Below are positions 1 through 14,781 of a stretch of 64,000 nt of DNA, in pieces. The notes under the pieces were generated by a model that was not told where the DNA came from, did not search any database, and saw nothing but the letters and a program-made list of their open reading frames with translations. Each line of letters opens with the position of its first letter. Positions within the stretch are counted from its first letter, which is position 1. The position numbers and the translations under genes are program-made. The stretch is taken from positions 622,501 through 686,500 of the forward strand of contig NZ_NSBU01000007.1 of assembly GCF_002285415.1 (NCBI RefSeq), read 5' to 3'. The stretch comes from Actibacterium pelagium (GTDB lineage: Bacteria; Pseudomonadota; Alphaproteobacteria; Rhodobacterales; Rhodobacteraceae).

Positions 1-216
1 CGTCAGGTAGTCGTTCGCCACAAGTTCGGTGTAGGCCAGTGTCACGGTGATACGTGCGACGCCGAGATGGTCGGCCAGTTTACGCGAAGAAGGCAGTTTT
101 TCCCCAGACACGCAGCGACCCGAGACGATGGCCTCGGACACGACTTGCTGGATCTGTTGTTGCAGGGTGGCCTCGCTGCCGGGGGGCAGCGAAAACATCT
201 CTGGAGGTATTACCAT
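1..216 (-). CDS. tauR: TauR-like MocR/GntR-family regulator (N-terminal part, runs off left edge)
   Basis: Only the first 72 codons lie in the window; the gene continues past position 1. The visible part is a winged helix-turn-helix of GntR type, with the stretch SSRKLADHLGVARITVTLAY that is characteristic of the MocR subfamily, in which the DNA-binding domain is fused to an aminotransferase-like effector domain (not visible here). It lies just downstream of tpa on the same strand, and TauR of related Rhodobacteraceae is a MocR protein that activates taurine genes. ATG at 214-216 is taken as the start; another ATG six codons in (198) is possible. Two CTGGAC-like direct repeats lie immediately upstream, which fits autoregulation. 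Assignment as TauR is inferred from family and location. Confidence 0.8.
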   Translation of the reverse strand, partial: MVIPPEMFSLPPGSEATLQQQIQQVVSEAIVSGRCVSGEKLPSSRKLADHLGVARITVTLAYTELVANDYLT

Positions 217-285: not shown

Positions 286-1665
286 TTAGCCAAATACTTT
301 GGTCAGGGCCTTGTCCATTGCATCTGTAATCTTGTCGATGTCGTCGGCTGTGGCGATCAGGGCCGGGGACAGGCACAAGGTGTTGTTGAACCCGGGCAAG
401 GATCGGTTGGTCGCCCCGATGATCACACCCTGCGCCATGCAGTCGGCAACCACGGCCTGAACCTGCGCTTCGGGCACCGGTTCCTTGCTGTCGCGATCCT
501 GAACCAGCTCGGCCCCGCAGAAGAGCCCAAGTCCACGGATGTCACCAATGACTTTGTGCTTGTCCATCAACCCTTGCAGGTTGGCCATTACGCGTTCGCC
601 CATGGCCGTGGTGTTGTCCAGAAGGGCTTCGTCTTCGATGATCCGCATGTTTTCCAGAGCCGCCACCGGACCAGCGGTACAGCCACCAAAGGTCGAAATA
701 TCGCGGAAGTGGTTCATTGGATCAGAGGCGTCGTCTTTGAACATTTCGAACACGCGCTCTGTGGTGACCATGCAGGCGATCGCGGCATAGCCAGAGGCCA
801 CGCCCTTGGCCATGGTGACAAAGTCGGGCTCGATACCAAAATGCTGATATCCAAACCATTTACCGGTCCGGCCTACACCGCAGACAACCTCGTCGATATG
901 CAGCAGAATGTCGTATTTACGGCAGATTTCCTGGACCCGCTGCCAATAGCCGACGGGCGGGGTGATTACGCCGCCGCCAGCGGTCACAGGCTCTAGGCAC
1001 AGGGCGCCGACCGTGTCAGGGCCTTCGCGCAGGATTACCTGTTCGATCTGGTCCGCAGCCCATTCACCGTAATGCTCTGTTTCAACCTGTGCGCGGTATT
1101 CAAGGCAATGGGGCACCTCGACGAAACCCGGCGTGTAAGGCCCGTATTGCGCGTTACGCTCGGGCTGACCACCTGCGGACATCGTCGCGATGGTCGCGCC
1201 GTGATAGTCGCGCTCGCGGTACAGGATCTTGTGCTTCTTGCCGCCGTGATGCTTGTGCGCAATCTGGCGAACCATTTTGAAGGCTTTCTCGTTCGCCTCA
1301 CTTCCCGAGTTCACATAGTAAACGCGGCTCATCCCCGGCATCTTGTCGATCAGGCGTTCCGCAAATTGCGCGCCCGGGATCGAGCCTGCGGACTGCGCGA
1401 AATAGTTCAGTTTGACCAACTGGTCACGAACCGCATCCGCGATGGATTCGCGTCCATAGCCGACATTCACAGTCCACACACCGCCAGAGACTGCATCCAG
1501 ATGTTCTTTGCCGGTGGCGTCCCAAAGGCGCATGCCTTTGCCTTCGACCATGATCTTGGGGTCATTGGTTTCAAGCGGTTTGTGCTGAAGCAAGTGATGC
1601 CAAACATGCGCCTTGTCCGAGGCGATCACTTCATCAAAATCGTTCATAGATGCAGAGTGGGTCAC
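286..1665 (-). CDS. tpa: Taurine--pyruvate aminotransferase
   Basis: 459 residues, a complete class-III PLP aminotransferase. Tpa transfers the amino group of taurine to pyruvate, giving sulfoacetaldehyde and alanine in the cytoplasm; sulfoacetaldehyde is normally cleaved by Xsc, which is not in this window. Family features visible are the cofactor-binding NSGSEANE segment (about residues 120-127), the LHIDEVVCGVGRTG motif and the MAKGVASGYA segment carrying the PLP lysine. The start at 1665 is a GTG preceded by GGAG at 7 nt; an in-frame ATG six codons later is the alternative. TauABC genes lie nearby and tauR follows directly. A beta-alanine or other omega-amino-acid transaminase is possible, but the context strongly favours Tpa. 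Confidence 0.88.
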   Translation of the reverse strand: MTHSASMNDFDEVIASDKAHVWHHLLQHKPLETNDPKIMVEGKGMRLWDATGKEHLDAVSGGVWTVNVGYGRESIADAVRDQLVKLNYFAQSAGSIPGAQFAERLIDKMPGMSRVYYVNSGSEANEKAFKMVRQIAHKHHGGKKHKILYRERDYHGATIATMSAGGQPERNAQYGPYTPGFVEVPHCLEYRAQVETEHYGEWAADQIEQVILREGPDTVGALCLEPVTAGGGVITPPVGYWQRVQEICRKYDILLHIDEVVCGVGRTGKWFGYQHFGIEPDFVTMAKGVASGYAAIACMVTTERVFEMFKDDASDPMNHFRDISTFGGCTAGPVAALENMRIIEDEALLDNTTAMGERVMANLQGLMDKHKVIGDIRGLGLFCGAELVQDRDSKEPVPEAQVQAVVADCMAQGVIIGATNRSLPGFNNTLCLSPALIATADDIDKITDAMDKALTKVFG

Positions 1666-1763
1666 GGTGTTGCTCCATTACGGTTTGGGGTGAGGGCCGA
1701 ATAGCCATGGGGCACAATCTTCGGCTTGCATCAAGACAGTTGAGACGAATAGCGATTGTGGAG

Positions 1764-1795
1764 TAGGGCCAGTTTCGCGTTACCCATAGGGCCAG
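1764..1795 (-). promoter_or_regulatory. TauR-like direct repeats upstream of tpa
   Basis: On the minus strand the 9-mer CTGGCCCTA occurs twice (complement of 1764-1772 and 1787-1795), 23 bp apart start to start, in the tpa promoter region about 100-130 bp upstream of the start codon. It differs by one base from the CTGGACCTA repeat next to tauR and has nearly the same spacing, so it is a plausible activator site for tpa. Confidence 0.5.
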
Positions 1796-1811
1796 ATGTC
1801 ACGCGTCGTTG

Positions 1812-4250
1812 CTAACTTCTGACACGTGTGAAGTCTGGATCGTAGGGAGAGAATGCAATGACCTCTGCCGGGATGCGCTTTCCACATAGATCCAGCTCCA
1901 TCCGGTTGCCCTTTCGCGCCTGTTCTGGATCAACAAATGCGTAGGCCACATTCATCCCCACGCGATGCCCCCATGCGCCGGACGTGATGGTTCCGACAAC
2001 GGTATCACCTTGCATCAAGGAGCTGCCGGGATGGGCAGGAGTATGGGTTGTTTCGATCCTTAGCGTTACGAGTCTTCTACGTGGCCCCTCGCCGTGGCGC
2101 TGCACAAGGGCCTTTTTCCCAACAAAGTCATCTTTCTCAAGGTTTACGAACCGCTCAAGAGAGGTCTCAAACGGGTCAAACTCTGTCAGCAGATCGGCCT
2201 TCCAGTGCATGAAGCCCTTTTCAAGCCGCATCGATTCGATGGCTCGCGCCCCGAAAAGTTTCATTCCGTGGGTTTCACCCGCTTTCCGCAAGGCAAGATA
2301 GGCGGCGTAAAGAGAGGCGTTTGGAACGTGGATTTCATAGGCCAGTTCGCCCGAGAAGCTGACGCCCAGAACGGTGGCAGGAGAGAACCCGATGAAACAC
2401 TCGCGCACAGACAGCCATGGGAAAGCCTTGCGCGACCAATCCCCGCGAGAGCAGGCAGACAGGACATCGCGCGCCTTTGGTCCGGCCAGAACTAGTATCG
2501 TCTGGTCATTGGTCAGGCTTTTGATCTGGACGTCCTCGTCGTCGCGAAGATGAAGCCGCAGCCAATCCATATCGTGAAACTCGGATGCAGCGGCAGAGCC
2601 ATACCAGATGCGGTCTGCCCCCCGGTCGCTGGCCGGTATGTTGGCAATAGTCGCTTCGCCTTTGATCATGCCGTGGTGGTTCAGAAGATAGCCCAATCCC
2701 ACGCGGCCCGGGCGTTTTGTGATGTTGCCGCAGAACATTCGGTCAAGGAATGTATGGCGATCCGCGCCAGTAATCTCGAACCGGTTGAAGCCATTGACCT
2801 CGGACAGGCCAACATGTTCCTGCAGTTTTTTCACCTCGGCGGCGACCAGAGCGAAGGTCTCATCAAAATTGAAGCTAAGCGTTGGATGAAAGTCTGCTGT
2901 CGGTTTTAGGTAATCCATCCGCTCCCACCCGTTGACGACGGTGAAAGCGGCGCCTTCCGCTGCCAGAACCGGGGTGAGGGGGGTCGTTTTCGCCGGACGG
3001 CCCGCCGGGCGATGTTCATGCGGGAAGTGAAAGCGGAATTCATTTTGGTAATCCTCTATGGCTTTCAGCGCGGTTAGTTCGACATTGGCGTGCCCGGTGA
3101 ACCGGCGGGGATCTATGCACCATGTGTCGTAAATGGCTTCTCCATGAACGATCTGTTGGGCTAGCAGCCAGCCATGGCCACCACCTTCGCCCAGACCCGC
3201 ACGTAACCCGATGATACAGAAAGCGTTGCGCTTGCCTGGAATGGGTCCGACCAATGGAGCGCCGTCGATGGTATAGGTGATGGGGCCGTTGACGATTGTT
3301 TGGATGCCCGCGTCCATCAAGGCGGGCATTCTGGCAAAGGCGCCCTCTAGCACGTCCATCACGCGATCAACGTCGTCTGGGCAAAGGGCATTGACGAAAT
3401 CGGGGTCGATCCCATCCATACCCCATGTCCTGCAGTCCTGTTCATAGAACCCGACCAACAGACCGTTTTTTTCCTGTCGACAATAGTAGTCACTGATGGG
3501 ACAGCGGATCAGGGGCATCCTGTGGCCGGCTTCGACAATGGCTGGGATGTCTTCGGTCAGGAAATACTGATGCTCCATCGAGGCAACGGGGTGGTGCACG
3601 CCCATCATCGCGCCGACCTCGTTCACGCGATACCCGCAGGCGTTTACGACGATGTCACAGTCGATGTCGCCGTGTTCAGTATGGACGGTCCAGGTTTCGT
3701 CGCTGTGCTGGGTCAGGTTTGTCACAGGTGTGTTGCGATAGATTTTTGCCCCGGCCTTGCGGGCCCGCCGAGCCAACGCCTGACACAGTTGCGCGGGGTC
3801 AATGTCCCCATCCAATGGGTCCCATAGCCCTCCGATCAGGTTGTCGGTCGAGATCAAAGGGTGTCGGCGCGCGCATTCCTCGGCGTCGATCACCTCGAAA
3901 CGGACATCCATCCCGCGCGCCATTGAGGCGAAGTGGCGATAGCCTTGCATCTGCTCTTCGGTGTTGGCCAGTCGGATGCCGCCATCGGCGTGGTGATAGT
4001 TGATCGGGTAGTCGGCGTCGTCTGCCAACTCTTTGTAAAGGTTTATCGAGTGTGACTTCAGCCCGACCATCGTCTGGTTCATACCGAAGTTGGTCACTTG
4101 GGCTGCGGAATGCCATGTCGTACCGCTGGTCAGTTCGTTTCGCTCGACCAGGACCACATCGGTCCAGCCTTCTTGCGTCAGATGATACAGGGTAGAACAG
4201 CCCGCGATCCCCCCGCCGATAACAACCACCTTGGTACGCGACTTCATCAA
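1812..4250 (-). CDS. FAD-dependent oxidoreductase with C-terminal GcvT domain (dimethylglycine/sarcosine dehydrogenase family)
   Basis: 812 residues with the classic two-part layout of dimethylglycine dehydrogenase-type proteins. The N-terminal DAO domain has a dinucleotide fold (VIGGGIAGCSTLYHLT, residues 10-25) and SGTTWHSAAQ, where His47 aligns with the histidine that binds FAD covalently in dimethylglycine and sarcosine dehydrogenases. From about residue 430 a GcvT/aminomethyltransferase domain follows (GRVGLGYLLN, GELAYEIHVP, MRLEKGFMHWKADLL). Family enzymes oxidatively remove an N-methyl group and pass the one-carbon unit to tetrahydrofolate. It sits between tpa and a LysR gene inside a taurine locus, so an N-methylated taurine is an attractive substrate (inference); dimethylglycine or sarcosine are the alternatives. 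Confidence 0.85.
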   Translation of the reverse strand: MMKSRTKVVVIGGGIAGCSTLYHLTQEGWTDVVLVERNELTSGTTWHSAAQVTNFGMNQTMVGLKSHSINLYKELADDADYPINYHHADGGIRLANTEEQMQGYRHFASMARGMDVRFEVIDAEECARRHPLISTDNLIGGLWDPLDGDIDPAQLCQALARRARKAGAKIYRNTPVTNLTQHSDETWTVHTEHGDIDCDIVVNACGYRVNEVGAMMGVHHPVASMEHQYFLTEDIPAIVEAGHRMPLIRCPISDYYCRQEKNGLLVGFYEQDCRTWGMDGIDPDFVNALCPDDVDRVMDVLEGAFARMPALMDAGIQTIVNGPITYTIDGAPLVGPIPGKRNAFCIIGLRAGLGEGGGHGWLLAQQIVHGEAIYDTWCIDPRRFTGHANVELTALKAIEDYQNEFRFHFPHEHRPAGRPAKTTPLTPVLAAEGAAFTVVNGWERMDYLKPTADFHPTLSFNFDETFALVAAEVKKLQEHVGLSEVNGFNRFEITGADRHTFLDRMFCGNITKRPGRVGLGYLLNHHGMIKGEATIANIPASDRGADRIWYGSAAASEFHDMDWLRLHLRDDEDVQIKSLTNDQTILVLAGPKARDVLSACSRGDWSRKAFPWLSVRECFIGFSPATVLGVSFSGELAYEIHVPNASLYAAYLALRKAGETHGMKLFGARAIESMRLEKGFMHWKADLLTEFDPFETSLERFVNLEKDDFVGKKALVQRHGEGPRRRLVTLRIETTHTPAHPGSSLMQGDTVVGTITSGAWGHRVGMNVAYAFVDPEQARKGNRMELDLCGKRIPAEVIAFSPYDPDFTRVRS

Positions 4251-4274
4251 AGCCCCTCCGATTGCACGTCATAT

Positions 4275-4289
4275 ATTGGTGAGGCCAAT
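4275..4289. promoter_or_regulatory. LysR-type box upstream of the FAD/GcvT gene
   Basis: ATTGG-N5-CCAAT is a perfect interrupted inverted repeat containing the T-N11-A signature of LysR-type operators. It ends 25 bp upstream of the oxidoreductase start codon, and the nearest upstream gene is a LysR regulator on the same strand. Confidence 0.45.
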
Positions 4290-4429
4290 TGCTGAACGTC
4301 GCAATACTGGAGGCTTGAGGTGGGGAAATTCGAAAGCTGTTTTGGAAAGTTTCGTATTAAGCCTTGGTTTGCTCAACTTAGTTTAAGGAAAGGCCAAACT
4401 GGAATTCAGAAACTCTGTGAGAGTTCGAG

Positions 4430-5404
4430 TTAGTCGATCAACGTGAACTTGTCGCGCAGCCAGGGATAGCTAACATGAAAAATGTCCAGCGCGTGGTCGG
4501 TCAGCAAACCGCGAACGCGGGTATTGACCAGTTCCACCACAGACCGAGAGCAGTCGGGCGTCGATACGATCGACAGGGTGCGGGCAAAGCTTTTGGCGGG
4601 GAAGGGGTGCAGGCGCAATTTTGAATGGAACCGTTTGGCGCGGGCATAAAGAAACGGTGTCGTAATGGTCCAGCCGACCCCGGCTGCAACCATTGCCATC
4701 AGGGTTTGGTTATTACTGCATTCAAAACGGTTTGATGTCGAAATCCCGCTGCGCCGAAGGTGAGAGTCGATCTGGCGCGAGATAATCAGGTTGCTGGTGA
4801 ACCGCAGAAACGGCAGCTTGGTGCGTCCTTCGACGATGTCTTTCAACGCCTGCTCTTCCCCGACTTTCAGGACCACGACAAACGGGTCGCGCAGAAGCGG
4901 GCGTTCGTACAAGTCACGCAGGCGTTCGGCGGGGCTAGCGGTGATGCCAAGGTCCAGCTTTCGGTCGCGCAATTGTTCGACGATGTCGTAGCTGAAGCCG
5001 CCTTGGAACAAGAAGTCACAGCGTGGCATTTGCCGGGACAGCGACACGGCCAGTTCCGGGATAATGTCGCTTTCAAAGTCATCGGTCGCACCGATGCGCA
5101 GATAAGTTGCCTCGGCGACATTTCCCGCGGATGCCTCGGCCTCTGCCTTGCGAATGGAATGCAGTGCCCCGTCGATATTGCGAAGGAAAATCAGCCCCTT
5201 GGGGGTCAGCGTCATTGGTCGGCGGCTGTGATTGAACAGCTCAACCCCCAGATGCTCTTCCAGCGACCGCAAGTGATGCGAGATCGTACTGACAGTCAGC
5301 CCGGTTTCCTCTGCCGCGGCTTGCAAAGACCCTTTTTGAGCGCAGATCTGAAACAGCTTCAGCCACTTCAGGCTGAGGTCCCGAGACTTAGGGTGGCGTG
5401 ACAT
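4430..5404 (-). CDS. LysR-family transcriptional regulator
   Basis: 324 residues with the standard LysR layout: an N-terminal winged HTH (residues about 13-72, including GSLQAAAEETGLTVSTISHH and LGVELFNHSRRPMTLTPKG) and a periplasmic-binding-protein-like effector domain. It lies between the FAD/GcvT gene (same strand, 179 bp downstream) and tauA (divergent, 330 bp upstream). It is therefore placed to control either or both, probably in response to a taurine-related effector (inference). No clear Shine-Dalgarno precedes the ATG at 5404; the start is chosen because it gives the usual spacing before the HTH. Confidence 0.88.
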   Translation of the reverse strand: MSRHPKSRDLSLKWLKLFQICAQKGSLQAAAEETGLTVSTISHHLRSLEEHLGVELFNHSRRPMTLTPKGLIFLRNIDGALHSIRKAEAEASAGNVAEATYLRIGATDDFESDIIPELAVSLSRQMPRCDFLFQGGFSYDIVEQLRDRKLDLGITASPAERLRDLYERPLLRDPFVVVLKVGEEQALKDIVEGRTKLPFLRFTSNLIISRQIDSHLRRSGISTSNRFECSNNQTLMAMVAAGVGWTITTPFLYARAKRFHSKLRLHPFPAKSFARTLSIVSTPDCSRSVVELVNTRVRGLLTDHALDIFHVSYPWLRDKFTLID

Positions 5405-5734
5405 TGAGCAAGTCCAGTTATATCAAGGCATAATTTATCAATCTATCTGAACATTAGTTGCAAAGTTTCGAAATAGAAAGTTCCGAGTCTGGCTTCGAGA
5501 ATTTTTGTGAATACTCGATATTCGACACGCAATCGTGCGCGAAAAGTATTCTTTGGATCAGTAGGAAGACACATTTGGGCGCCGTACTCCCGGCCACTTT
5601 ACTCGGGTGAGGGTTCCCAAACTTTACCGAAACAGAGTTTTCGATTGTCGTGTTAGGATATTCCTGGGGTGCGCCCCAACACTCGGAAGCGCGCAAAAAA
5701 GCGTCGCACAAAATAGTAACAGGGAGAAAATCCA
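5405..5734. promoter_or_regulatory. Divergent control region between the LysR gene and tauA
   Basis: This 330-bp gene-free stretch must hold promoters for both directions. A single TauR-like half (minus-strand CTGGACTT, complement of 5410-5417) lies close to the LysR start. A short perfect inverted repeat, TGGGG-TGCG-CCCCA (5665-5678), lies 57 bp upstream of tauA. The tauA start is preceded by GGGAG. No convincing -35/-10 pair or second TauR half-site at 22-23 bp spacing was found. Confidence 0.5.
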
Positions 5735-6730
5735 ATGAAGAAAACTGTCGCTACACTTCTGGCAGGAAGCGCGATGGCACTGTCCGCCAATGCCGTTTCG
5801 GCAATGGATGAAATCACGGTCGCCTATTTCCTCGAGTGGCCGATGCCGTTCGAATACGCAAAGCAGATGGGCACCTATGACGAAGAGCTTGGCGTTAAGG
5901 TCAACTGGGTCAGCTTTGAATCCGGTGTGAAAATGTCGGCGGCGATGGCGTCGGGCGACGTTCAGCTTTCGGTCAGCCAAGGCCTTCCGCCTTTCGTTGT
6001 TGCGACCAGCGCTGGTCAGGACCTGCAGATCCTCGACGTCGCGGTCAGCTATGCCGATAACGACAACTGCGTTGTGCGTTCAGAGCTTGAGATCGACAAG
6101 ACCAACGCGGGTGAGCTTTCCGGCAAGAAAGTCGCCGTTCCGCTTGGTACCGCGGCCCACTATGGCTTCCTGAAGCAGATGAGCCACTTTGGCGTGGACG
6201 TCGCCTCGATGGATGTTGTGGACATGGATCCGCCGGATGCCGCTGCTGCAATCGCGCAGGGCTCGATCGACATGTTCTGTGGCTGGGGTGGTTCGCTGCG
6301 CCGCGCGCTGGAGCATGGTAACGTTCTGCTGACCGGCGACGAGAAGACCGAACTTGGTATTCTTGTGTTTGACGTGACCTCGGGTCCGGCAGACTTCGTT
6401 GCCGAGAACGGCGATCTGGTTGCCAAGTTCCTGAAGGTTACCGCTGATGCAAACGCCATGTGGGCGGACCCGGCAAACCGCGACAAAATGCTTCCGGTTA
6501 TCGCCAAGGACGCCGGTATGGATGTGGACGCCACAGCCAGCACCATTGACACCTTCACCTTCCCGACCGTGGAAGAGCAGCTGGCAGCCGGTTGGCTGGG
6601 CGGCAATGCTCAGTCCTTCATGAAGGGCGTTGCTGATGTCTTCGTGGAAGCTGGCAGCATCGACGGCGCGCTGGATACCTATGAAAACAACGTGAACACC
6701 GGTCCGCTAAGCTCGGCCGGCAGCATGTAA
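5735..6730 (+). CDS. tauA: Taurine ABC transporter substrate-binding protein
   Basis: 331 residues. A signal peptide is evident (MKKTVATLLAGSAMALSANA, cleavage about residue 23), so the protein is periplasmic. The mature part has the NMT1/SsuA-type fold found in sulfonate, taurine and nitrate binding proteins (GDVQLSVSQGLPPFVVATSA and the LSGKKVAVPLGTAAHYGF hinge region). It is the first gene of tauABC and has a good GGGAG ribosome site. The identification as taurine-binding rests on the neighbouring tpa, tauR and tauBC; a different sulfonate or a short organic amine is possible. Confidence 0.85.
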   Translation: MKKTVATLLAGSAMALSANAVSAMDEITVAYFLEWPMPFEYAKQMGTYDEELGVKVNWVSFESGVKMSAAMASGDVQLSVSQGLPPFVVATSAGQDLQILDVAVSYADNDNCVVRSELEIDKTNAGELSGKKVAVPLGTAAHYGFLKQMSHFGVDVASMDVVDMDPPDAAAAIAQGSIDMFCGWGGSLRRALEHGNVLLTGDEKTELGILVFDVTSGPADFVAENGDLVAKFLKVTADANAMWADPANRDKMLPVIAKDAGMDVDATASTIDTFTFPTVEEQLAAGWLGGNAQSFMKGVADVFVEAGSIDGALDTYENNVNTGPLSSAGSM

Positions 6731-6741
6731 TTGACACGACC

Positions 6742-6770
6742 CGAGACGGCAGGCGTGTCTTGCCGTCTCG
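6742..6770 (+). other. Intercistronic hairpin after tauA
   Basis: CGAGACGGCA (6742-6751) pairs perfectly with TGCCGTCTCG (6761-6770) around a 9-nt loop. It lies 11 nt after the tauA stop and has no T-run. Such hairpins commonly protect the abundant binding-protein message and lower expression of downstream importer genes. Confidence 0.6.
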
Positions 6771-6838
6771 TCCCCTTGTGGCGCGGTCCCACGCCACTCG
6801 TTTTCTGAGATTTAAGACAGGAGCAGAAAGCGCATCCC

Positions 6839-7645
6839 ATGTCAGGATTATCTATCGAAAATATCTCCATGAGGTTCGATCTTCCGAACGGCACCGCAGT
6901 TCAGGCGCTTCAGGACGTCTCGCTTCACCTGAAAGAAGGTGAATTGATGAGCGTGCTTGGCCCGTCAGGCTGCGGCAAGACCACGTTGCTGAATATCGTG
7001 GCGGGCTTTCTTGCGCCGACTGAAGGCAAGATCGTGATGAACAACCACACCGTCGCCGGCCCGAATGCCGAGCGCGGGATGGTGTTTCAGCAGGGCGCAC
7101 TGTTCGAGTGGATGGACGTGCGAGAGAACGTCAGCTTTGGCCCTCGAATGAAGGGCCAGACAGAGGCCGAGTGGGGCCAGCATGTGGACCACTTGTTGGA
7201 TGTAACCGGCCTTGGCGATTTTAAAGACAAAGCCATCTACGAGCTTTCGGGCGGGATGCAGCAACGTGTGGCTTTGGCTCGTTGTCTTGCGAATGATCCG
7301 GATGTGATCCTGATGGACGAACCCCTTGGCGCGCTGGACGCGCTGACGCGTGAAAAGATGCAAGGGTTGGTTCTGAAACTTTGGAAAGAGACCGGCAAGA
7401 CGATCATCCTGATCACCCACTCTGTGGAAGAGGCCTTGTTGTTGGGCGAACGCCTGTTGGTCATGGCGCCGCGCCCCGGCCGAATTCATAAAGAGTATCG
7501 TTTGCCCTTCGCCGAGATGGGCGTGGGCGCCGATCTACGCGAGGTGAAGAAGGCTGACGGTTATGCCGAAACGCGAGAAGAAATTCTCGAAATGATCTGG
7601 AACATGGAAGAAGAAATCATGGGCCGGGCGGAGGAAATGGCATGA
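6839..7645 (+). CDS. tauB: Taurine ABC transporter ATP-binding protein
   Basis: 268 residues with all ABC ATPase motifs: Walker A GPSGCGKTT (41-49), signature LSGGMQQR, Walker B VILMDEPLGALD and the switch histidine in ITHSVEEALLL. It is of the TauB/SsuB/NrtD type and energises taurine import at the inner face of the membrane. It follows tauA after a 108-bp gap with a hairpin and overlaps tauC by 4 bp (ATGA), so tauB and tauC are translationally coupled. There is an acidic C-terminal tail (MIWNMEEEIMGRAEE). Confidence 0.88.
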   Translation: MSGLSIENISMRFDLPNGTAVQALQDVSLHLKEGELMSVLGPSGCGKTTLLNIVAGFLAPTEGKIVMNNHTVAGPNAERGMVFQQGALFEWMDVRENVSFGPRMKGQTEAEWGQHVDHLLDVTGLGDFKDKAIYELSGGMQQRVALARCLANDPDVILMDEPLGALDALTREKMQGLVLKLWKETGKTIILITHSVEEALLLGERLLVMAPRPGRIHKEYRLPFAEMGVGADLREVKKADGYAETREEILEMIWNMEEEIMGRAEEMA

Positions 7646-8916
7646 CCGGTATTCTGATCCTCTTAGTCTACGTCGCGATCTTCGCGATTTCATTCCTTGT
7701 TGTCCGTTTTCTGGTTCACAAAACCACCACGGATTACACGGCCCTGAAAACGGTTACCTTCGGCGATGAAAGCGCGGTGAAGGCGAACCGAATTGCCTCT
7801 GTTGTCTCGGTTGTCACGATCTTCCTGATTTGGGGATCATTCACCGGGTCATCTTGGGTGCCGGGCTTCGTGCATGCGCCGGGACCTTTCGCGGGCGAAA
7901 CCTCTTTCGTTTACACGATTGAAACCGAGGATGGTCAGAAGGACGATGCAACTGTCTTTGTGCGCGTTGCCGACTTTGGCGAAGAGACCGAGAAGTTTGA
8001 GGTCGACCCGGGCGATGGTATCGCAAAGAACGATGCGGTGGGGATGCCGGCGTCGCGTTCGACGACGATCATCTTTGACAAGAATGACGAGGTTACCCGC
8101 AAAGATGGCGCCAAAGTCGTGGCCATCGACGGTGTCGCCATCGGGGCGGAAGGCGAAATCCAAACCCCCGCAGGTCGGTTTACATTGACTGGTAAGGGCG
8201 CGATCAGTTTCTCGCCCCCCAAGGGCCTGCAGATGGAGCCGATCTGGCTGCCGCCGCCCGAAGCTGTGGTCAGCCGCGTGGTCGAGATTGCAAGCGAAGG
8301 CTATCGCGATAGCACGCTGGCCAAGCACCTTGGCTATTCGCTGTTCCGGGTCATTGCTGGCTTCCTGTTCGGGGCGCTTCTGGGCATTCCCCTTGGCTAT
8401 GCCATGGGCCTTAGCAACTGGTTCCGTGGCTGGTTTGAGCCGATCGTGGAATTCATGCGCCCGGTGCCACCGCTGGCCCTGATCCCGCTGGTCATCATCT
8501 GGTTCGGCATTGGTGAAACCGGCAAGATCATCCTGCTGTTCCTGGCATCGCTTTGGATCATGGCGATCTCGGCAAGGGCAGGGGTCTCTGGCGTGAATAT
8601 CTCAAAGGTGCACGCAGCCTATTCGCTTGGTGCTAGCAAGTACCAGATCATGCGTTACGTGATCGTTCCGAACTCTTTGCCGGAAATCTTCACCGGCGCG
8701 CGTGTGGCGATGGGGGTCTGTTGGGGCACCGTGGTTGCCGCCGAACTGGTTGCCGCGACCGAAGGTGCGGGCATGATGATCATGGTGGCGTCCAAGTTCC
8801 AGCTGACCGACATCGTTCTGATGGGTATCATCCTGATCGGTGTCATTGGCTTCGGGATCGATATCCTGATGCGCAAGGCCGAGAATTGGTTGGTGCCGTG
8901 GAAAGGTCGCAGCTGA
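7642..8916 (+). CDS. tauC: Taurine ABC transporter permease with a large extra periplasmic domain
   Basis: 424 residues, compared with about 275 for ordinary TauC/SsuC permeases. The C-terminal 230 residues are a typical binding-protein-dependent permease, with the EAA loop SLGASKYQIMRYVIVPNSLP and several membrane helices. The N-terminal part has one membrane helix at the extreme start, a second at about residues 53-70, and then roughly 130 residues of hydrophilic, probably beta-rich sequence (GETSFVYTIETEDGQ, TPAGRFTLTGKGAISF) before the permease core. That insert is likely periplasmic. It ends in front of a strong terminator. Confidence 0.85.
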   Translation: MTGILILLVYVAIFAISFLVVRFLVHKTTTDYTALKTVTFGDESAVKANRIASVVSVVTIFLIWGSFTGSSWVPGFVHAPGPFAGETSFVYTIETEDGQKDDATVFVRVADFGEETEKFEVDPGDGIAKNDAVGMPASRSTTIIFDKNDEVTRKDGAKVVAIDGVAIGAEGEIQTPAGRFTLTGKGAISFSPPKGLQMEPIWLPPPEAVVSRVVEIASEGYRDSTLAKHLGYSLFRVIAGFLFGALLGIPLGYAMGLSNWFRGWFEPIVEFMRPVPPLALIPLVIIWFGIGETGKIILLFLASLWIMAISARAGVSGVNISKVHAAYSLGASKYQIMRYVIVPNSLPEIFTGARVAMGVCWGTVVAAELVAATEGAGMMIMVASKFQLTDIVLMGIILIGVIGFGIDILMRKAENWLVPWKGRS

Positions 8917-9019: not shown

Positions 9020-9715
9020 TTAGGTTCGGGCGGACTCAAACGCGTTCCAAGCCGCTTCGAAGGCGTCGAAATCGAACCCTTCCTGCCTTGCCGGGTCGAG
9101 GACCAGTTTCTCGGTTTCCAAGAGTTTAAGGATCGCGGTTTCTAGCCGATCAACCACATCTTCAGGAACGACCAAGGCGCCGTGACGATCGGCGTGGACC
9201 AAATCTCCGTCATTAACCGTAAGGCCGAAGATGTTGACCGGGGTTCCGATTTCTTTGACGTGCACAAACCCGTGCGACGGTCCGATAGATCCTGCGACCA
9301 CCGGATAGTTGTCGGGCAGGTCGGCAAGATCGCGCATGACGCCGTTCGTCAAGGTGCCACTGATCCCGAACCCCTTGTGTACGGTTGTGTTGATCTCTCC
9401 CCAATAGGCGCCGATGCAGTGGGGGAAGTCGATGTCTTCTACCACGGTGACTGCGGGGCGTGGGCCTTCGGACATGTGGCGGTAATAGTCCATGCGGCGG
9501 GCCTTGATGACCTCTGGCGGTTCGGTTGGGGGCGCAAGGGCTGCGATCTTTGCGGTGCGGGCATAGCCGACCATGGCCCCGGCGTCTGGGTCAGAGCACA
9601 ACATCGTTCCACGGGTGAAATCGTTGAAGCCGCGTTTGCCCTGCGCCACTTCGATGGCGTTACAGACGGTGGGGGTGTCGACCTTTCGCAAAAGGTCCAG
9701 AAGGGATTGGTTCAT
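9020..9715 (-). CDS. RraA/HMG-aldolase family protein
   Basis: 231 residues of the RraA-like fold. Members include 4-hydroxy-4-methyl-2-oxoglutarate / oxaloacetate aldolases, which end several ring-cleavage and sugar-acid routes; others are RNase E regulators or non-catalytic. The conserved region GISGTLTNGVMRDLADLPD carries the expected G-x-x-x-D-x-R-type active-site pattern in the modified form T-N-G-V-M-R-D. GGAGG lies 6 nt before the ATG. It is the last gene of the long minus-strand catabolic run and overlaps the upstream hydrolase by 4 bp. The context favours an aldolase, decarboxylase or hydratase role in catabolism over RNase E control. Confidence 0.8.
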   Translation of the reverse strand: MNQSLLDLLRKVDTPTVCNAIEVAQGKRGFNDFTRGTMLCSDPDAGAMVGYARTAKIAALAPPTEPPEVIKARRMDYYRHMSEGPRPAVTVVEDIDFPHCIGAYWGEINTTVHKGFGISGTLTNGVMRDLADLPDNYPVVAGSIGPSHGFVHVKEIGTPVNIFGLTVNDGDLVHADRHGALVVPEDVVDRLETAILKLLETEKLVLDPARQEGFDFDAFEAAWNAFESART

Positions 9716-10407
9716 AGGGCCTCCAACCAGCGGGACAGGGCCGCCGTGGTTTCTTCGGGTTGTTCAAGCGTGGGCAGATGGCCCGCGTTTTCAATGATCT
9801 CAAGGGTGCTGTGCGGGATCAGCTCATGCATCAGTTGATGCCGTTCAACCGGGCAAAGCTGATCATCTCGACCGCAAAGGATCAGCGTTGGTTTGGCAAA
9901 GGTCCGCAGCGTTTCGGTCTGGTCGATCCGGTCACGTAGGGCTTTGGATTGATTGATAAAAACCTGAGGCCCAAGACCCATCGCCATATCCATGCACAGG
10001 TCCAGAATTGCCCCGCGACGGGGTCCGTCGGTCAGGTAGTTCGGCTTCATCTCTTCGCGCATGACGCGGTAAAGCTCGCCGGCTTCGGCAGCGGCGATCT
10101 GCGGGGCGCGGCGGGTTTTGACCTCATCCAGTTCGGCTAGGGGATTGGTGTCCATCAAGGCCAGACCAGTAACGCGATCCTTTGCCTGCCTAACGACCTC
10201 CATCGCCAGAATGCCGCCCATGGAAAGGCCCGCGATGGCAAATCGGGGCGGGGCACAGGACAAGAGTTCAGCGGCCAAGGCCTGCATCGTGTCATGGCCG
10301 CCCATGGGCATAGTCATCAGGGGAATGTGCCCGGACAAGGCGTCGATCTGCGGCTGAAACAGCCGCGCGTCGCACATCATGCCGGGTAAAAGGATCAGGG
10401 GTGTCAC
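9712..10407 (-). CDS. Alpha/beta hydrolase
   Basis: 231 residues. The start LILLPGMMCDARLF and the nucleophile elbow GLSMGG (serine near residue 81) are typical of cytoplasmic alpha/beta-hydrolases. A late Asp (CGRDDQLCP) and His (ENAGHLPTLEQPE) complete the triad. The start is a GTG that overlaps the TGA of the preceding gene (GTGA), so translation is probably coupled. Within the cluster it could open an ester, lactone or C-C bond; the substrate cannot be told from sequence. Confidence 0.82.
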   Translation of the reverse strand: MTPLILLPGMMCDARLFQPQIDALSGHIPLMTMPMGGHDTMQALAAELLSCAPPRFAIAGLSMGGILAMEVVRQAKDRVTGLALMDTNPLAELDEVKTRRAPQIAAAEAGELYRVMREEMKPNYLTDGPRRGAILDLCMDMAMGLGPQVFINQSKALRDRIDQTETLRTFAKPTLILCGRDDQLCPVERHQLMHELIPHSTLEIIENAGHLPTLEQPEETTAALSRWLEAL

Positions 10408-11537
10408 TGGCGTTCAGAGGCGATTTTCGCGCCGTCAGAGAGGGCCGAAAGCTTGGCGTAGGCAATGTCAGGATCGACCGCACCGAAACCCGCGAAGGTG
10501 CCGAAGCCGCAATCAGAGCCAGCGATCACGCGGTCGGCGCCGACGATTTGTGTAAACATATCAATACGTTGCGCGACAAGTTCGGGGTGTTCGACGAAGT
10601 TGGTGGTGGTATCTACGACGCCGGGGACCAGCACTTTGTCGTCTGGAATCTCGGTCTTGCGGTCTCGGAAGACGGTCCATTCATGGGCGTGGCGGGGGTT
10701 TGAGGTCTCGAACAGCACAAAGCGGGACTTGGTCGACATCAGGGTCGAAAACACCTTGTCCATGCCGATGTCGCAGCAGTGCGGGCCTTCGTAATTGCCC
10801 CAGCAGATGTGGACGCGGACCTTGTCGGCGGGCACGTCGGATAGGGCGTGGTTCAGAGCCTCGACATGCATGTTGGCGACCTTTACGAACTCTTCATCCG
10901 ACAGGTCGTTGAACAGCATGTGACGCGACAGGGCGAGGTCAGGGCAATCCAGTTGCAGGTCCAGCCCCGAGGCGACGATGGTTTCATATTCCGCCTTCAT
11001 CGCGTCGGCGAGTGCAGCCAGATATGCCTCGCGCGTTTTGTAGAAATCATTTTGCAAAAACAAGGAGATAACACCGGGAGATGCGGCATTCATAAAGCCG
11101 CGTTCGGCCCCGTGTTCGGCCATTGCCGCCTTTAGGTTGGCGATGTCTTTTTCCAACTCTCCTTGGCCTTTTGAGCGGACTTCGCCGGTGCACATGGGGC
11201 GGGCGTATTGGGGGGTGCCGCCGTCGTCGGCGAGGCGTTGCAGGAAGCCCGGGAACATCTTCAGGTCGGCTGGTGCATTGCGTGGGCTGTCGCCGGAAAA
11301 GCCGGTGTAGCGGTCTTTGACGTAGGTGGCGTAAGAGATCTTGGACGTTTCGCCATCGCTGACGATATCTACGCCCGCATCCACTTGTTTTTTAACGGTT
11401 TCCGAGACAGCAGCGGTCATGCAAGCGTCGAAATCTGCCTGATCGTAGGGCTTTTCGTTTTCACGAGCGAAGATGAAATCAACCACGTCTTGCGTGCGTG
11501 GCAGGCTGCCCACGTGGGTTGTTAAGATTTTCGACAT
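10404..11537 (-). CDS. Core MetE-like zinc enzyme (cobalamin-independent methionine synthase family)
   Basis: 377 residues, equivalent to the C-terminal catalytic half of MetE only. It opens with the family motif LTTHVGSLPR. Zinc-site residues are visible as His-x-Cys in HICWGNYEG and a late Cys in AGSDCGFG. Proteins of this size either methylate homocysteine from small methyl donors or, as in epoxyalkane:coenzyme M transferase, activate a thiol for attack on another substrate. The chosen ATG (11535-11537) has GGAGGA at 7 nt. Four 11-bp repeats lie just upstream. It overlaps the hydrolase gene by 4 bp. It is not a full methionine synthase; the true reaction is unknown. Confidence 0.82.
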   Translation of the reverse strand: MSKILTTHVGSLPRTQDVVDFIFARENEKPYDQADFDACMTAAVSETVKKQVDAGVDIVSDGETSKISYATYVKDRYTGFSGDSPRNAPADLKMFPGFLQRLADDGGTPQYARPMCTGEVRSKGQGELEKDIANLKAAMAEHGAERGFMNAASPGVISLFLQNDFYKTREAYLAALADAMKAEYETIVASGLDLQLDCPDLALSRHMLFNDLSDEEFVKVANMHVEALNHALSDVPADKVRVHICWGNYEGPHCCDIGMDKVFSTLMSTKSRFVLFETSNPRHAHEWTVFRDRKTEIPDDKVLVPGVVDTTTNFVEHPELVAQRIDMFTQIVGADRVIAGSDCGFGTFAGFGAVDPDIAYAKLSALSDGAKIASERQ

Positions 11538-11553
11538 GCCGTTCCTCCGGTCC

Positions 11554-11597
11554 GTATGAGTGCCATATGACCTGCATATGACTTGCATATGAGTTTA
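11554..11597. repeat. Four tandem 11-bp repeats upstream of the MetE-like gene
   Basis: Units at 11554-11564, 11565-11575, 11576-11586 and 11587-11597 read GTATGAGTGCC, ATATGACCTGC, ATATGACTTGC and ATATGAGTTTA. The phase is one helical turn, so a protein could bind along one face. The array ends just upstream of the ribosome site of the MetE-like gene and contains TTGCATA, which is also in the cluster's LacI-type palindromes. Confidence 0.65.
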
Positions 11598-11601
11598 TTG
11601 A

Positions 11602-11651
11602 TGCCCCGCCGCGTTAACCTTTGCGGGGGCAGGGCGGCCCGCTGGCCGCCC
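11602..11651 (-). other. Two hairpins between the cupin and MetE-like genes
   Basis: CCCCGC (11603-11608 region) can pair with GCGGGG around 11623-11628. Next to it GGGCGGCC (11632-11639) and GGCCGCCC (11644-11651) form a perfect 8-bp stem with a CGCT loop. On the minus strand they follow the cupin stop and lack a T-run. On the plus strand CTTTTC follows. They may attenuate or process the operon message. Confidence 0.5.
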
Positions 11652-11660
11652 CTTTTCATG

Positions 11661-12623
11661 TTAGTTGCCGGTCCAGGTCGCGCCTGCCGGATCGTCGGTC
11701 GCGGTGATCCGATAGAGGCTGGCCTCTCCGGTCATCGAGGGTTCTGCGGTATAGCTTTCGCCGGGCATCACCAGCGCAGTGTCGCCGCCCGTCAGGGTGA
11801 CCTGATAGCCATCGACATTGATGCGCCAATGGCCGCGTACCGGCATCAGCACGACAGGTTTCTCGACCTTGGTGGCTGCGGTGACGGCAGAGCCTCGGGT
11901 CAGGAAGTCGACCTCGAACCCCGGTTTGTCTTTGATGACGCCATCCTGGCCGATCACGACGGCAGGTTTGTCGGCACCAAGGGCCATCAGGTCCCAATAG
12001 CGGGCAACGTATTTGCCGATCACGGCATCAACCGGAACCTCGGGATAGGCTTTCAGCTGCTCTTCGGTCAGCAGGGGCATCGGGCCTATGCCTTCGGGCA
12101 GGGACTGGCCCTTCTTGGTGTCGTAGAGCTTGCCGTTTTCGCCCAGCACAAGGCCGTGGTCCTTCGCGTCTTCGATCACCTGCGGGGCCCATGTGACGCC
12201 ACCGCCAGCGTCATCGCCACCAAGGATCGACATGATCATCCCATAGTCGGTGCCGATGTTTTCGAACCCGCGGAAGATGCCGGTCGGAATGTTGAAGATA
12301 TCGCCTTCCTCGGCTACGAACTCTCCGGCGGTGCCATAGCGGCCCCAGAAGAAGCGCCAGCGGCCCTTGGCGACAAAGAAGACCTCGGCCGTGGTGTGGC
12401 TGTGCAAAGAGTTGCGGCACTTGGGCGGCTGGCCCGCCGCGCCGATGTTAAAGCCGATCTGGTCGGTGATGTGGACGTGCTGATCGGGGGATTCCGAAAC
12501 GCCGCCGCCGACGATGGTGAAGTTTTCCTTTTGGTCGCTGCCCGGGGTGTGGGCGTCGATAAAGGCGGTTTTGCAGGGGACCAGTTCGCCATAGCGAACG
12601 ATGCGGTCTTGGATGGTGCTCAT
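11661..12623 (-). CDS. Cupin-domain protein
   Basis: 320 residues. The N-terminal cupin has the metal-binding pattern in CRNSLHSHTTAEVFFVAKG (two His, one Glu) followed by a GDIFNIPTGIFRGFEN turn with an aromatic where the third His often is. A second, degenerate cupin covers the C-terminal third (MPVRGHWRIN, MPGESYTAEPS). Bicupins include dioxygenases and isomerases. ATG at 12621-12623 has a GGA-rich site upstream. It is preceded by a 152-bp gap, so it may have its own promoter. The function within the pathway is unknown. Confidence 0.78.
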   Translation of the reverse strand: MSTIQDRIVRYGELVPCKTAFIDAHTPGSDQKENFTIVGGGVSESPDQHVHITDQIGFNIGAAGQPPKCRNSLHSHTTAEVFFVAKGRWRFFWGRYGTAGEFVAEEGDIFNIPTGIFRGFENIGTDYGMIMSILGGDDAGGGVTWAPQVIEDAKDHGLVLGENGKLYDTKKGQSLPEGIGPMPLLTEEQLKAYPEVPVDAVIGKYVARYWDLMALGADKPAVVIGQDGVIKDKPGFEVDFLTRGSAVTAATKVEKPVVLMPVRGHWRINVDGYQVTLTGGDTALVMPGESYTAEPSMTGEASLYRITATDDPAGATWTGN

Positions 12624-12775
12624 GTGTCTTGTCCTTTCTGGTTGGGTGTTGGGTGGGGGAAAGCCCACCTTCCCGGAGGACGGTTGTTCAGACGCCGCGC
12701 CCGCAACGACGCGCGATGCGCGTGAAAGCGCTGCGCCGCTTGGCTGGCATCAAGATATGGCACCCGAGAGATCAT
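12624..12775. promoter_or_regulatory. Leader of the cupin gene with palindromes
   Basis: The gap before the cupin gene contains ACGCGC-GAT-GCGCGT (12709-12723) and a following TGAAAGCGCT (12723-12732), which resembles half of a LacI/GalR-type operator. GTGGG/CCCAC near 12651-12668 forms a small hairpin. No clear promoter hexamers were found. Confidence 0.35.
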
Positions 12776-13774
12776 TCAGAGGTCACCGGTTGCCAGAAGG
12801 ATCTGTTTCCAAACCGAAGTTTCATCAAACAGGGTCCATTCGCGCCGCAGCTTGGGTTCGCCGCCGATCAGCTCGCCGAATTCCGCGTGGGAAATGCCCA
12901 GCACATAGACCTCGGCCCCGGTGGGGGCGCCGAAGACGCCCCAGCCATCGTGTTTGCCCCAAAGGCACCAGCGGATGGCGGCGCGTGGGGGCATGGAAGG
13001 GTCATCGCGGCCGATCTGGTGTTCGATCTTGAACTCGGCGTTCGGGAAAGAGGCGCGCAGCCCCATCCAGAACCGATCAACCGGGGCCCAGCCATGGCCG
13101 GTCTGGCCGCCGGGGTATTCCGATTGCACGGCACGGTCGTATTCGCCTTCGATCGCGGCGATGTCGGCATTCATGATCCTCGTCAGGATATCGGCATAGC
13201 GCTGGCCCCACGCATTGTCGTTGCCGGTTCCTTTATAGGGGCCGTCGCGGTCGGTCTTGGGGGTCAGGGGTTTGACGCAGGCCTTGGCCCCGCCTTCGCG
13301 GGCAATCAGGTCGCGCGCATAGTCCTTGGGATCCCAGCCCATCTGGCGCACGATCGCGCCTTGATCGCGGATCAGCCATTCGTCGTCGATGGCGTTGTTC
13401 TTGGCGTGGCAGTCGGCAAGGATGCGGTATTGCAGTTTTTTGCCGGTGGCCTTGCCATAGACACCGTCACCCAGATGGGTCGCGGTCGAGATGATGCGGT
13501 GCGAGCTAAGCATCCCGTCTTCTGGCGTGCCGGACCAGATCACGTCTTCGCCAAGCAACTGTCGGTCGGGGAATTCGGCCAAGGTGGCCATGGTGGCGCC
13601 GATGACGTTTTGGTTGCCCAGAACCACAGAGCCGGGCGAGCGCACGACGATATCGGGGCTGTAATAGTCGTGCAGCGTCGCGATGCCGCGGTCTTCCCAA
13701 ATCTCTTTGGTGATCCCGATAATGTAATCGGGGAAATCTTTGAATTTGGGATCAAATCCCTTCATGTCTTCCAT
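12776..13774 (-). CDS. SnoaL/NTF2-like protein A
   Basis: 332 residues, about twice the length of a single SnoaL-type domain. The N-terminal half (residues about 15-140, with SPDIVVRSPGSVVLG and HRIISTATHLGDGVYG) and the C-terminal half (DRFWMGLRASFPNAEFKIEH, AIRWCLWGKHDGWG) each look like an NTF2-fold unit. Such folds include ester cyclases, dehydratases and isomerases. It starts inside the end of the lacI-like gene: ATG at 13774, or the in-frame ATG at 13765 that makes an ATGA overlap. It is the most divergent of the four paralogues in the cluster and lacks the C-terminal ENWV motif of the others. Confidence 0.72.
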   Translation of the reverse strand: MEDMKGFDPKFKDFPDYIIGITKEIWEDRGIATLHDYYSPDIVVRSPGSVVLGNQNVIGATMATLAEFPDRQLLGEDVIWSGTPEDGMLSSHRIISTATHLGDGVYGKATGKKLQYRILADCHAKNNAIDDEWLIRDQGAIVRQMGWDPKDYARDLIAREGGAKACVKPLTPKTDRDGPYKGTGNDNAWGQRYADILTRIMNADIAAIEGEYDRAVQSEYPGGQTGHGWAPVDRFWMGLRASFPNAEFKIEHQIGRDDPSMPPRAAIRWCLWGKHDGWGVFGAPTGAEVYVLGISHAEFGELIGGEPKLRREWTLFDETSVWKQILLATGDL

Positions 13775-14781
13775 CCTTCAGGAATGCGGGCAGAGCCGCG
13801 AATTATTAGCGGGCCGTCGATCTCGACTCGGCGGGGGCCGTGGGCCTCGCCCTCGATTTCGTCCAGCAGTATGTCGACAGTCTCAGAGACCATGCGGTTG
13901 GCGGGTTGGCGGACCGTGGTCAGGTTGTAGGCTGGCCATGCCGCGGTCGGCACGTCGTCGTAAGAGACAACAGAGACGTCTTCGGGCACCTTCAGGCCCA
14001 GCTCAGAGCGCAGCACGTCCATGACGGCAAAGGCCATGTGATCGTTGGCCACGAACACGGCTTCGGGCGGGTCTTGGGCAAACATGGTGCGGGTGGCCTC
14101 GGCGGCCTGTTCCATCTTGAAGTTGCCGACACCACGGGCGTGCAGGTCGACGCCTTCTTCGGCCAGTTTGTGCACGAACCCGGCTTCGCGGTCGCGTTGG
14201 GTCGAGGCACCTTCCCAGCCCGCGATATAGCCGATCTTGCGGTGGCCACTGGCCAGCAGGAACTCTGCCACTTTACGCCCACCGGCGAAGTTGTCCGAGG
14301 TCACGGCAGACATCTCTGGGCCGTCTTGCGAGCGGTTGAACAGTACCATCGGCACGCCTGCCGCCTGACAGCGGGCCGAGAGTTCGGTCGACATGCCGAC
14401 CGAGGCTGCGATGATCCCGTCGACCTGATAATCAAGGATCTCTTCGACGACATTATCGATGTCCGCCGCTGTATTCGGGGCGAGGAAAACCAACACGTGG
14501 TAGCCGCGTTCCTGCAGGGCGTTGGACAGTTTCTCCAAGGCTTCGGGGTAGAAGTGGTTTTCAAGATAAGCGACCACCAGACCGATGATCCGAGAGCGCC
14601 CCGATACCATCGCACGGGCAAGCGAGTTTGGGCGATAGCCAAGTTCTTCCGCGGCCTTCTTCACCTTGTCCACGGTCTTCTTCGACGCCGAGGCACCGGG
14701 GGTGAAAACGCGACTGACCGCCGATTGTGAAACGCCGGCGAGTTTGGCGACCTCGGCTGATGTTACCTTGGGGCTGGTCAT
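13762..14781 (-). CDS. LacI-family repressor
   Basis: 339 residues. The N-terminal LacI HTH is unmistakable (VTSAEVAKLAGVSQSAVSRV with hinge YRPNSLARAMVSGRS), followed by a sugar-binding-protein-like effector domain (GLVVAYLENHFYPEALEKL, VFVANDHMAFAVMDVLR, VSVVSYDDVPTAAW). ATG at 14781 overlaps the SDR stop codon (ATGA); a GTG four codons earlier is possible. As an in-operon repressor of a MalE-type importer cluster it is the natural candidate to bind the two 20-bp palindromes at 23000-23074. The effector would be the imported compound or an intermediate (inference). Confidence 0.9.
   Translation of the reverse strand: MTSPKVTSAEVAKLAGVSQSAVSRVFTPGASASKKTVDKVKKAAEELGYRPNSLARAMVSGRSRIIGLVVAYLENHFYPEALEKLSNALQERGYHVLVFLAPNTAADIDNVVEEILDYQVDGIIAASVGMSTELSARCQAAGVPMVLFNRSQDGPEMSAVTSDNFAGGRKVAEFLLASGHRKIGYIAGWEGASTQRDREAGFVHKLAEEGVDLHARGVGNFKMEQAAEATRTMFAQDPPEAVFVANDHMAFAVMDVLRSELGLKVPEDVSVVSYDDVPTAAWPAYNLTTVRQPANRMVSETVDILLDEIEGEAHGPRRVEIDGPLIIRGSARIPEGWKT

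Follow-up and report, generated by a model that had tools for sequence, protein, structure and literature searches.

A dimethylglycine dehydrogenase-like flavoprotein beside taurine genes in Actibacterium pelagium: a candidate demethylase of methylated aminosulfonates

The 64,000-nucleotide stretch of the Actibacterium pelagium genome analysed here (assembly GCF_002285415.1, contig NZ_NSBU01000007.1, forward-strand positions 622,501 to 686,500; hereafter the window) carries, close to its left edge, a minus-strand open reading frame at 1812-4250 that encodes a flavoprotein of the FAD/GcvT family, to which dimethylglycine dehydrogenase (DMGDH) belongs. A preliminary description of this DNA had placed a DMGDH-like protein between tpa and the regulator of tauABC, and had proposed that it might demethylate N-methylated taurines; domains and gene order were both confirmed, the supposed regulator being a LysR gene. 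Counted from the TTG codon at 4250 the frame comprises 812 aa, but the ATG at 4247 is the more likely start, giving 811 aa, because GGAGGGG lies just 5′ of this ATG and the orthologue consensus opens with MKSRTK. Pfam comparison revealed the domains DAO (220 bits), FAO_M, GCV_T (residues 428-700, 171 bits) and GCV_T_C (residues 725-804) in the order known from DMGDH, with all four above their gathering scores. The closest solved relatives were rat and human DMGDH (494 bits, residues 3-800), followed by DMGO (279 bits). The locus comprises the following features:

1812..4247, minus strand: FAD/GcvT demethylase-type protein, 811 aa (Pfam, match to DMGDH, start by consensus)
3156..4232, minus strand: DAO-type FAD domain (residues 7-365) with His47, His227/Tyr256 and the group-specific Lys65, Arg350, Ala351 and Glu355 (Pfam and alignment to DMGDH, PMC5082570)
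2985..3146, minus strand: FAO_M central domain (residues 369-422; Pfam)
1839..2969, minus strand: folate domain of GcvT type with the C-terminal barrel (residues 428-804); Glu532 corresponds to a Glu in rat DMGDH (Pfam and alignment)
286..1665, minus strand: class-III aminotransferase, probable taurine:pyruvate aminotransferase (Tpa; Pfam, name by context)
1..216, minus strand: N-terminal part of a regulator of the MocR family (TauR-like), which continues beyond the window (above the cut-off of NCBIfam PdxR)
4430..5404, minus strand: LysR regulator (Pfam; a LysR gene often adjoins the flavoprotein in close relatives)
5735..6730, plus strand: TauA-type substrate-binding protein, the only clear TauA of the genome (151 bits, below the TIGR01729 cut-off)
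6839..7645, plus strand: TauB-type ATPase (NCBIfam comparison)
7642..8916, plus strand: TauC-type permease, extended at its N terminus by about 200 residues (Pfam and NCBIfam comparison)

Alignment indicated that the FAD-linking His47, the dyad His227/Tyr256 and the folate-domain Glu532 are all retained, as in the family with covalent FAD and this dyad. Elsewhere in the pocket, Lys65 and Arg350-Ala351 were present in 166/166 aligned orthologues and in neither rat DMGDH nor the aligned paralogues, the position of the latter pair being Gly-Tyr in rat DMGDH and mostly Thr-Phe in the paralogue FADw1. Specifically, Lys65 aligned with His109 of human DMGDH (counted from the FAD-linking His91), a residue described as lying near the active site, whose replacement by Arg has been suggested to make the tunnel for the substrate narrower (PMC5082570). 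The pocket of a dimethylglycine dehydrogenase proper, with its His109 site and flavin-side Gly-Tyr, was not found in the flavoprotein. The Lys65 and Arg350-Ala351 sites might decide specificity, and two extra cationic residues in the pocket would suit a sulfonate substrate. Lys65 and Arg350-Ala351 were also kept in the copies of Pseudomonas, Mesorhizobium and Paracoccus, and this constancy of the pocket signature across gene settings argues for one substrate class.

The flavoprotein is one of seven FAO_M-type paralogues in the window genome. Of 295 family genomes, each from a different genus, 275 yielded some match at 1e-100 or better, and the matches formed two bands, at 57-91% and at no more than 42% identity. 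The upper band covered at least 92 of the 295 sampled genera, including that of the window, and by this separation the flavoprotein is assigned to an orthologue group apart from its paralogues. Six further orthologues lie in genomes outside the family (G434, G492, G538, G625, G642 and G649). As controls we took the first 40 paralogue matches of the lower band among those listed (two of these, L251 and L256, proved to be of another type than FADw1; L250 is short, as is L251). These loci contained a match to FADw1 in 38 cases (36 at 60% identity or more), to the second paralogue FADw2 in 33 and to the MttB-family protein MttBw1 in 12, and 33/40 held both FADw types. FADw1 and FADw2, joined by MttBw1 in 12/40 loci, form a widespread module of the family (L206:9273-15865, L220-L259), in which another MttB type is paired with FAD/GcvT proteins in parallel; in the window genome this module has purU and adjoins the taurine genes. 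The FADw1/FADw2 module would be the better candidate for dimethylglycine and sarcosine. Similarity scores did not single out the true DMGDH of the genome, since the four other paralogues compared by phmmer (that is, the six without those at C7:224674 and C6:157311) reached 459-527 bits with DMGDH.

With TauABC, Tpa and Xsc close together, the window genome holds a taurine dissimilation locus, in which TauA scores below the TIGR01729 cut-off and Tpa is named by context. The tauABC-type transporter (5735-8916, plus strand) is divergent from the minus-strand aminotransferase, flavoprotein and LysR genes. The ~200-residue extension of its TauC-type permease (7642-8916) was kept in relatives (e.g. 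L010, 88% over 424 aa). The name tpa, as used in the preliminary description, is one given by context. It is favoured by the adjoining MocR/TauR-like gene at 1..216 and by an Xsc above its curated cut-off ~17 kb away, while the aminotransferase at 286-1665 reached no cut-off among the 25 NCBIfam models listed of 69. Moreover, the genome has a second aminotransferase 80% identical to it (L260:8439-9860; G000:C7:1536442-1537800) among reductive-pyrimidine genes, of which PreA and dihydropyrimidinase are above their NCBIfam cut-offs. This second copy is therefore probably a beta-alanine:pyruvate aminotransferase, and naming Tpa by similarity alone is unsafe. A tree of 14 Tpa-like proteins, meant to tell taurine from beta-alanine aminotransferases, gave no split between the two settings.

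Left of the window (L206), the end of xsc is followed, in order, by an acetate-kinase-family gene, a citrate-synthase-like gene, a molybdoenzyme set, a regulator that we read as XRE-like, FADw1, MttBw1 (one of two MttB-family proteins in the genome), FADw2, purU (above cut-off), the MocR/TauR-like regulator and, at the window edge, tpa. Formate dehydrogenase was considered for the large molybdoenzyme and dropped; since the protein scored below every NCBIfam cut-off (PhsA came closest, with 209 bits), it is left without a name. The intergenic gaps at the flavoprotein gene measure 146 and 179 bp, scans for promoters and terminators across 1500-6000 yielded no signal stronger than in shuffled sequence, and gene order is the basis for any operon structure assumed here. 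Further right, at 9020-14793 on the minus strand, lies an unrelated block with an RraA-like protein, an alpha/beta hydrolase, a MetE-C-terminal-like protein, a cupin, one protein that matched no NCBIfam model, and a regulator of the LacI family.

Neighbours of the orthologues were counted within 9 kb in two sets of loci: 80 named loci (the best 80 of 579 confirmed matches, not independent of one another) and 88 genus-level loci (the 91 listed orthologues outside the window genome minus three partial ones, in G195, G142 and G255). Contig-end loci were kept in the counts, and both flanks extended over at least 8 kb in 61/80 and 68/88 cases. An MttB-family corrinoid methyltransferase (type c2), which the preliminary description had not seen, proved to be a frequent partner, in 42/80 named and 45/88 genus-level loci. 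A HisD-type (HpsN-like) dehydrogenase was found in 35/80 and 8/88, TauA in 26/80 and 1/88, CuyA in 12/80 and 4/88, ProX in 15/80 and 4/88, and the agmatinase-like Agm1 in 15/80 and 3/88. In the Ruegeria loci L012, L020, L026, L030, L043-L045, L047, L061, L066 and L068, the MttB/demethylase pair is flanked on one side by two agmatinase-like genes and a ProW-type transporter and on the other mostly by a block of TRAP (tripartite ATP-independent periplasmic) transporter and HisD-type genes. Genes for ETF, FolD and PurU adjoined that of the flavoprotein in 2/80 named loci and in strain SC52, and in 0/88 genus-level loci.

At least one of TauA, TauC, Tpa, CuyA and the HisD-type gene was present in 44/80 named and 9/88 genus-level loci, compared with 0/40 paralogue loci under identical thresholds. 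At genus level the contrast is modest (Fisher p 0.03), and Xsc was outside the control scan. Control matches below threshold, to TauB (28 and 45%), CuyA (42%) and Tpa (35%), were uncounted, and a TauR-like gene, which was above threshold in 2/40 controls, was not used as sulfonate evidence. Tpa lay nearby in just 2/80 named and 1/88 genus-level loci besides the window, so that the flavoprotein is not a constant member of the taurine dissimilation locus. The conserved linkage with taurine genes on which the preliminary description had made its proposal depend is therefore partly supported: close relatives do show a link to TauABC and to sulfonate genes more widely, which is thin beyond them, and the link to Tpa is weak. 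Its assignment of the LysR gene as tauABC regulator found no support, as LysR accompanied the flavoprotein in 70/80 and 34/88 loci at 26% identity or more, and in 48/80 and 14/88 at 45% or more, compared with 26/80 for TauA.

On a FastTree of 167 orthologues, of which 70/160 inner branches are weak, parsimony gave a minimum of 14 changes for adjacency to TauABC, 12 for CuyA, 22 for the HisD-type gene, 4 for Tpa and 38 for MttB, with deep members mostly MttB-adjacent. TauABC was placed in three ways, i.e. upstream divergent (as in the window), downstream convergent and upstream in line, and its pairing with the flavoprotein therefore arose more than once.

Some relatives carry more complete blocks. 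In an Antarctic Pseudomonas, on a plasmid classed as conjugative (L272), the flavoprotein (61% identity) stands between CuyB and ProX in a block of CuyA, a sulfate/sulfite exporter, a hisD-type (HpsN-like) gene, a DegT-type aminotransferase, a TRAP transporter, CuyB, ProX, EtfBA, PurU, FolD, ETF-QO and ProVW. In Paracoccus seriniphilus (L274, 76%) it lies, between LysR and EtfBA, with Xsc, a TRAP transporter, LysR, EtfBA, FolD, PurU, TauABC (56, 80 and 63% identical to that of the window), CuyA, a DegT-type aminotransferase, CuyB and hisD, and in Leisingera methylohalidivorans (L276), between MttB and CuyA, with MttB, CuyA, an aminotransferase, CuyB, a hisD-type (HpsN-like) gene and an exporter. 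Locus L197 combines TauR-like, Tpa, TauABC, flavoprotein, MttB and Xsc genes, and loci L049 and L261 combine Xsc, TauR-like, Tpa, TauCBA, LysR and flavoprotein genes. Among ten plasmid records with a copy at 60% identity or more, six (H2, H3, H4, H5, H8, H10) held CuyA, CuyB, Xsc, TauABC or HisD-type genes, and the other four (H1, H6, H7, H9) held none of these in the stretch read. Where ETF, FolD and PurU are present, they fit a DMGDH-like chemistry in which electrons pass to ETF and methylene-tetrahydrofolate is converted to formate.

The gene names in these blocks were supported by family comparison, as 4/4 tested members of both CuyA and CuyB were above the NCBIfam cut-offs. Three HisD-type members (L276, L031, L272) scored 542-546 bits with dehydrogenases of 2,3-dihydroxypropane-1-sulfonate (DHPS) versus 237-264 bits with the best histidinol dehydrogenase and are thus HpsN-like; that of L276 retains the sulfonate-recognising GRYSH-type His (family as in PMC11382572). 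In Ruegeria pomeroyi DSS-3, where the demethylase orthologue is SPO_RS20090, the gene following it (SPO_RS20085, L271:12549-13247) was above the NCBIfam cut-off for the cysteate racemase CuyB (276 bits, cut-off 190). For this strain, PMC11382572 describes the genes of both racemase and aminotransferase as unknown, and the DegT-type aminotransferase of the related blocks is a candidate for the missing aminotransferase.

Across the sampled genera, the flavoprotein was present in 55/58 with an MttB orthologue versus 37/237 without. Likewise, a TauA orthologue was present in 79/92 genera with the flavoprotein versus 61/203 without (odds ratio 14). When 265 genera were stratified by DmdA, the TauA association was seen both among DmdA-positive (57/64 versus 16/46) and DmdA-negative genera (17/21 versus 39/134).

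Taken together, we propose, at about even chances, that the flavoprotein is an N-demethylase coupled to ETF and folate, whose substrates are methylated aminosulfonates, namely methylated taurines in the window and three-carbon analogues elsewhere. The N-methyltaurine demethylation of the preliminary description is thereby kept as a plausible methylated-sulfonate role, with a substrate class that may be wider than N-methyltaurine. Its statement that methylated taurines occur in marine algae holds for at least some of these, as N,N,N-trimethyl-, N,N-dimethyl- and N-monomethyltaurine were reported together with taurine from the red alga Galaxaura rugosa (PMC10538540). Among open PMC articles, judged by titles and the beginnings of abstracts, no paper on folate-linked bacterial demethylation of taurines was found. 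Homarine was weighed as a possible substrate and set aside, there being no evidence for it.

In such a scheme, uptake would proceed via TauABC in the window and via ProXVW or TRAP transporters in relatives. In MttB-bearing genomes, the MttB-family corrinoid methyltransferase would move one methyl of the trimethyl (betaine) form to a corrinoid protein, leaving the dimethyl form, a step modelled on MtgBCD (PMC12478193). The flavoprotein would then oxidise an N-methyl group at its covalent FAD and hand the electrons to ETF, while its GcvT domain would pass the methylene to tetrahydrofolate. In the window genome c2 MttB is missing, and entry there is therefore more likely as dimethyl- or N-methyltaurine, unless MttBw1 serves; either or both would come in via TauABC, and the taurine product would go to Tpa and Xsc. 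For the three-carbon analogues of relatives, an HpsN-like dehydrogenase, CuyB and CuyA would provide the further route. The substrate of this branch could be methylated cysteinolate, for which amino-alcohol oxidation by the HpsN-like enzyme would parallel histidinol dehydrogenase. Cysteinolic acid is described as widespread in microalgae (PMC8703288), and we met no report of its methylated forms in the literature. More tentatively, and with the balance of probability somewhat against it, these genes might together constitute a pathway not described before, located in part on plasmids and linked to both B12 and folate, that degrades aminosulfonates with quaternary or tertiary nitrogen (taurine betaine, dimethyltaurine, methylated cysteinolate), in which MttB removes the first methyl, the flavoprotein the next ones, and the bare sulfonate drains via Tpa/Xsc or HpsN/CuyB/CuyA.

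A number of observations weigh against an aminosulfonate role. No sulfonate gene was found with the probes used within 9 kb in 79/88 genus-level loci, 40 of which were also without MttB, and a search of the window genome at 1e-170 gave no c2 MttB orthologue. Some copies adjoin genes of other pathways, among them that of Marinovum, which lies beside genes for the demethylation of dimethylsulfoniopropionate. The flavoprotein also tracks DmdA (64/85 versus 46/180), part of the TauA association therefore reflecting a general algal-osmolyte lifestyle, and the co-occurrence statistics ignore kinship among genera. An AlphaFold2 model built from 36 close orthologues had a mean predicted local distance difference test score of 53.6 and a predicted template modelling score of 0.38, and was left out of all readings. 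The protein might instead act as a dehydrogenase of dimethylglycine (or sarcosine) in the breakdown of glycine betaine, with MtgB as its MttB partner and with sulfonate neighbours that share regulation as algal osmolyte genes. DMGDH being the nearest solved relative would agree with this, as would the partner MttB, whose best score among solved structures was with glycine betaine methyltransferase (199 bits), and the gcvPHT genes on one side of the R. pomeroyi DSS-3 copy. In 4/88 loci, moreover, the neighbours are an MtgD-like methyltransferase (one tested, above its NCBIfam cut-off) and a gene read as MetF2, without family match, which fit glycine betaine. MttBw1 itself scored 203 bits with trimethylamine methyltransferase and 194 bits with glycine betaine methyltransferase. 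Nevertheless, the window genome already has FADw1 and FADw2 around MttBw1, with PurU, as a widespread pair and good candidate for the glycine betaine route, and the similarity to DMGDH is shared by four other paralogues. As the pocket differs at invariant positions and the linkage with CuyA, CuyB, HpsN-like and TauABC genes would be left unexplained, we regard a dimethylglycine dehydrogenase as rather unlikely.

The substrate might also be another methylated zwitterion, such as one of the carnitine/butyrobetaine series, proline betaine or a methylated guanidino compound, perhaps depending on the lineage. Agmatinase-like and ProX genes adjoin the flavoprotein in 15/80 named loci, carnitine-type genes do so on two Ruegeria plasmids, and arginine-catabolism genes lie on the other side of the R. 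pomeroyi DSS-3 copy. The single pocket signature from Pseudomonas to the window points to one substrate class instead, and arginine genes were found in 0/80 named and 0/88 genus-level loci, which makes this reading improbable in our view. That the flavoprotein gene is a mobile accessory without any taurine tie, adjoining taurine genes in the window by chance, would be in keeping with its occurrence on plasmids, with the scarcity of Tpa and with TauABC adjoining only in the window and 1/88 genus-level loci, where ~0.4 would be expected under random placement in a 3.8-Mb genome. Since TauA lies within 9 kb in 26/80 closer relatives, in three arrangements, and is associated with the flavoprotein genome-wide, chance adjacency seems very improbable.

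If the flavoprotein does demethylate aminosulfonates, the marine one-carbon and B12 economy would be tied to the organosulfonate cycle, a substrate class would be assigned to one of the MttB-type genes lacking one, and a marker gene would be at hand in at least 92 of the 295 sampled family genera.

Among known systems, the catabolism of three-carbon sulfonates by CuyA/CuyB and HpsN (PMC11382572, PMC11131964) involves the same gene families that adjoin the demethylase in many relatives; the parts of these reports drawn on here concern cysteate and DHPS and name no methylated substrate. MtgBCD of R. pomeroyi (PMC12478193) is alike in combining an MttB-superfamily protein with FAD/GcvT demethylases and folate-linked one-carbon oxidation, although the MttB beside the flavoprotein in relatives is of another type than the MttBw1 beside FADw1 and FADw2; the same report counts as many as seven genes of MttB type and proposes a variety of methylated substrates for them. 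Rat and human DMGDH and DMGO share with the flavoprotein the domain order, the covalent-FAD His, the His/Tyr dyad and the GcvT folate domain, and ETF, the acceptor of DMGDH, is encoded next to the flavoprotein gene in a few relatives. The flavoprotein differs from DMGDH in having Lys65 for human His109 and Arg350-Ala351 for Gly-Tyr, and in the sulfonate genes around it. Our literature search found no paper on a methylamine-releasing N-methyltaurine dehydrogenase. The N-methyltaurine dehydrogenase route would likewise end in sulfoacetaldehyde and Xsc, but it releases methylamine, whereas in the route proposed here the methyl carbon would pass to folate and taurine would be released.

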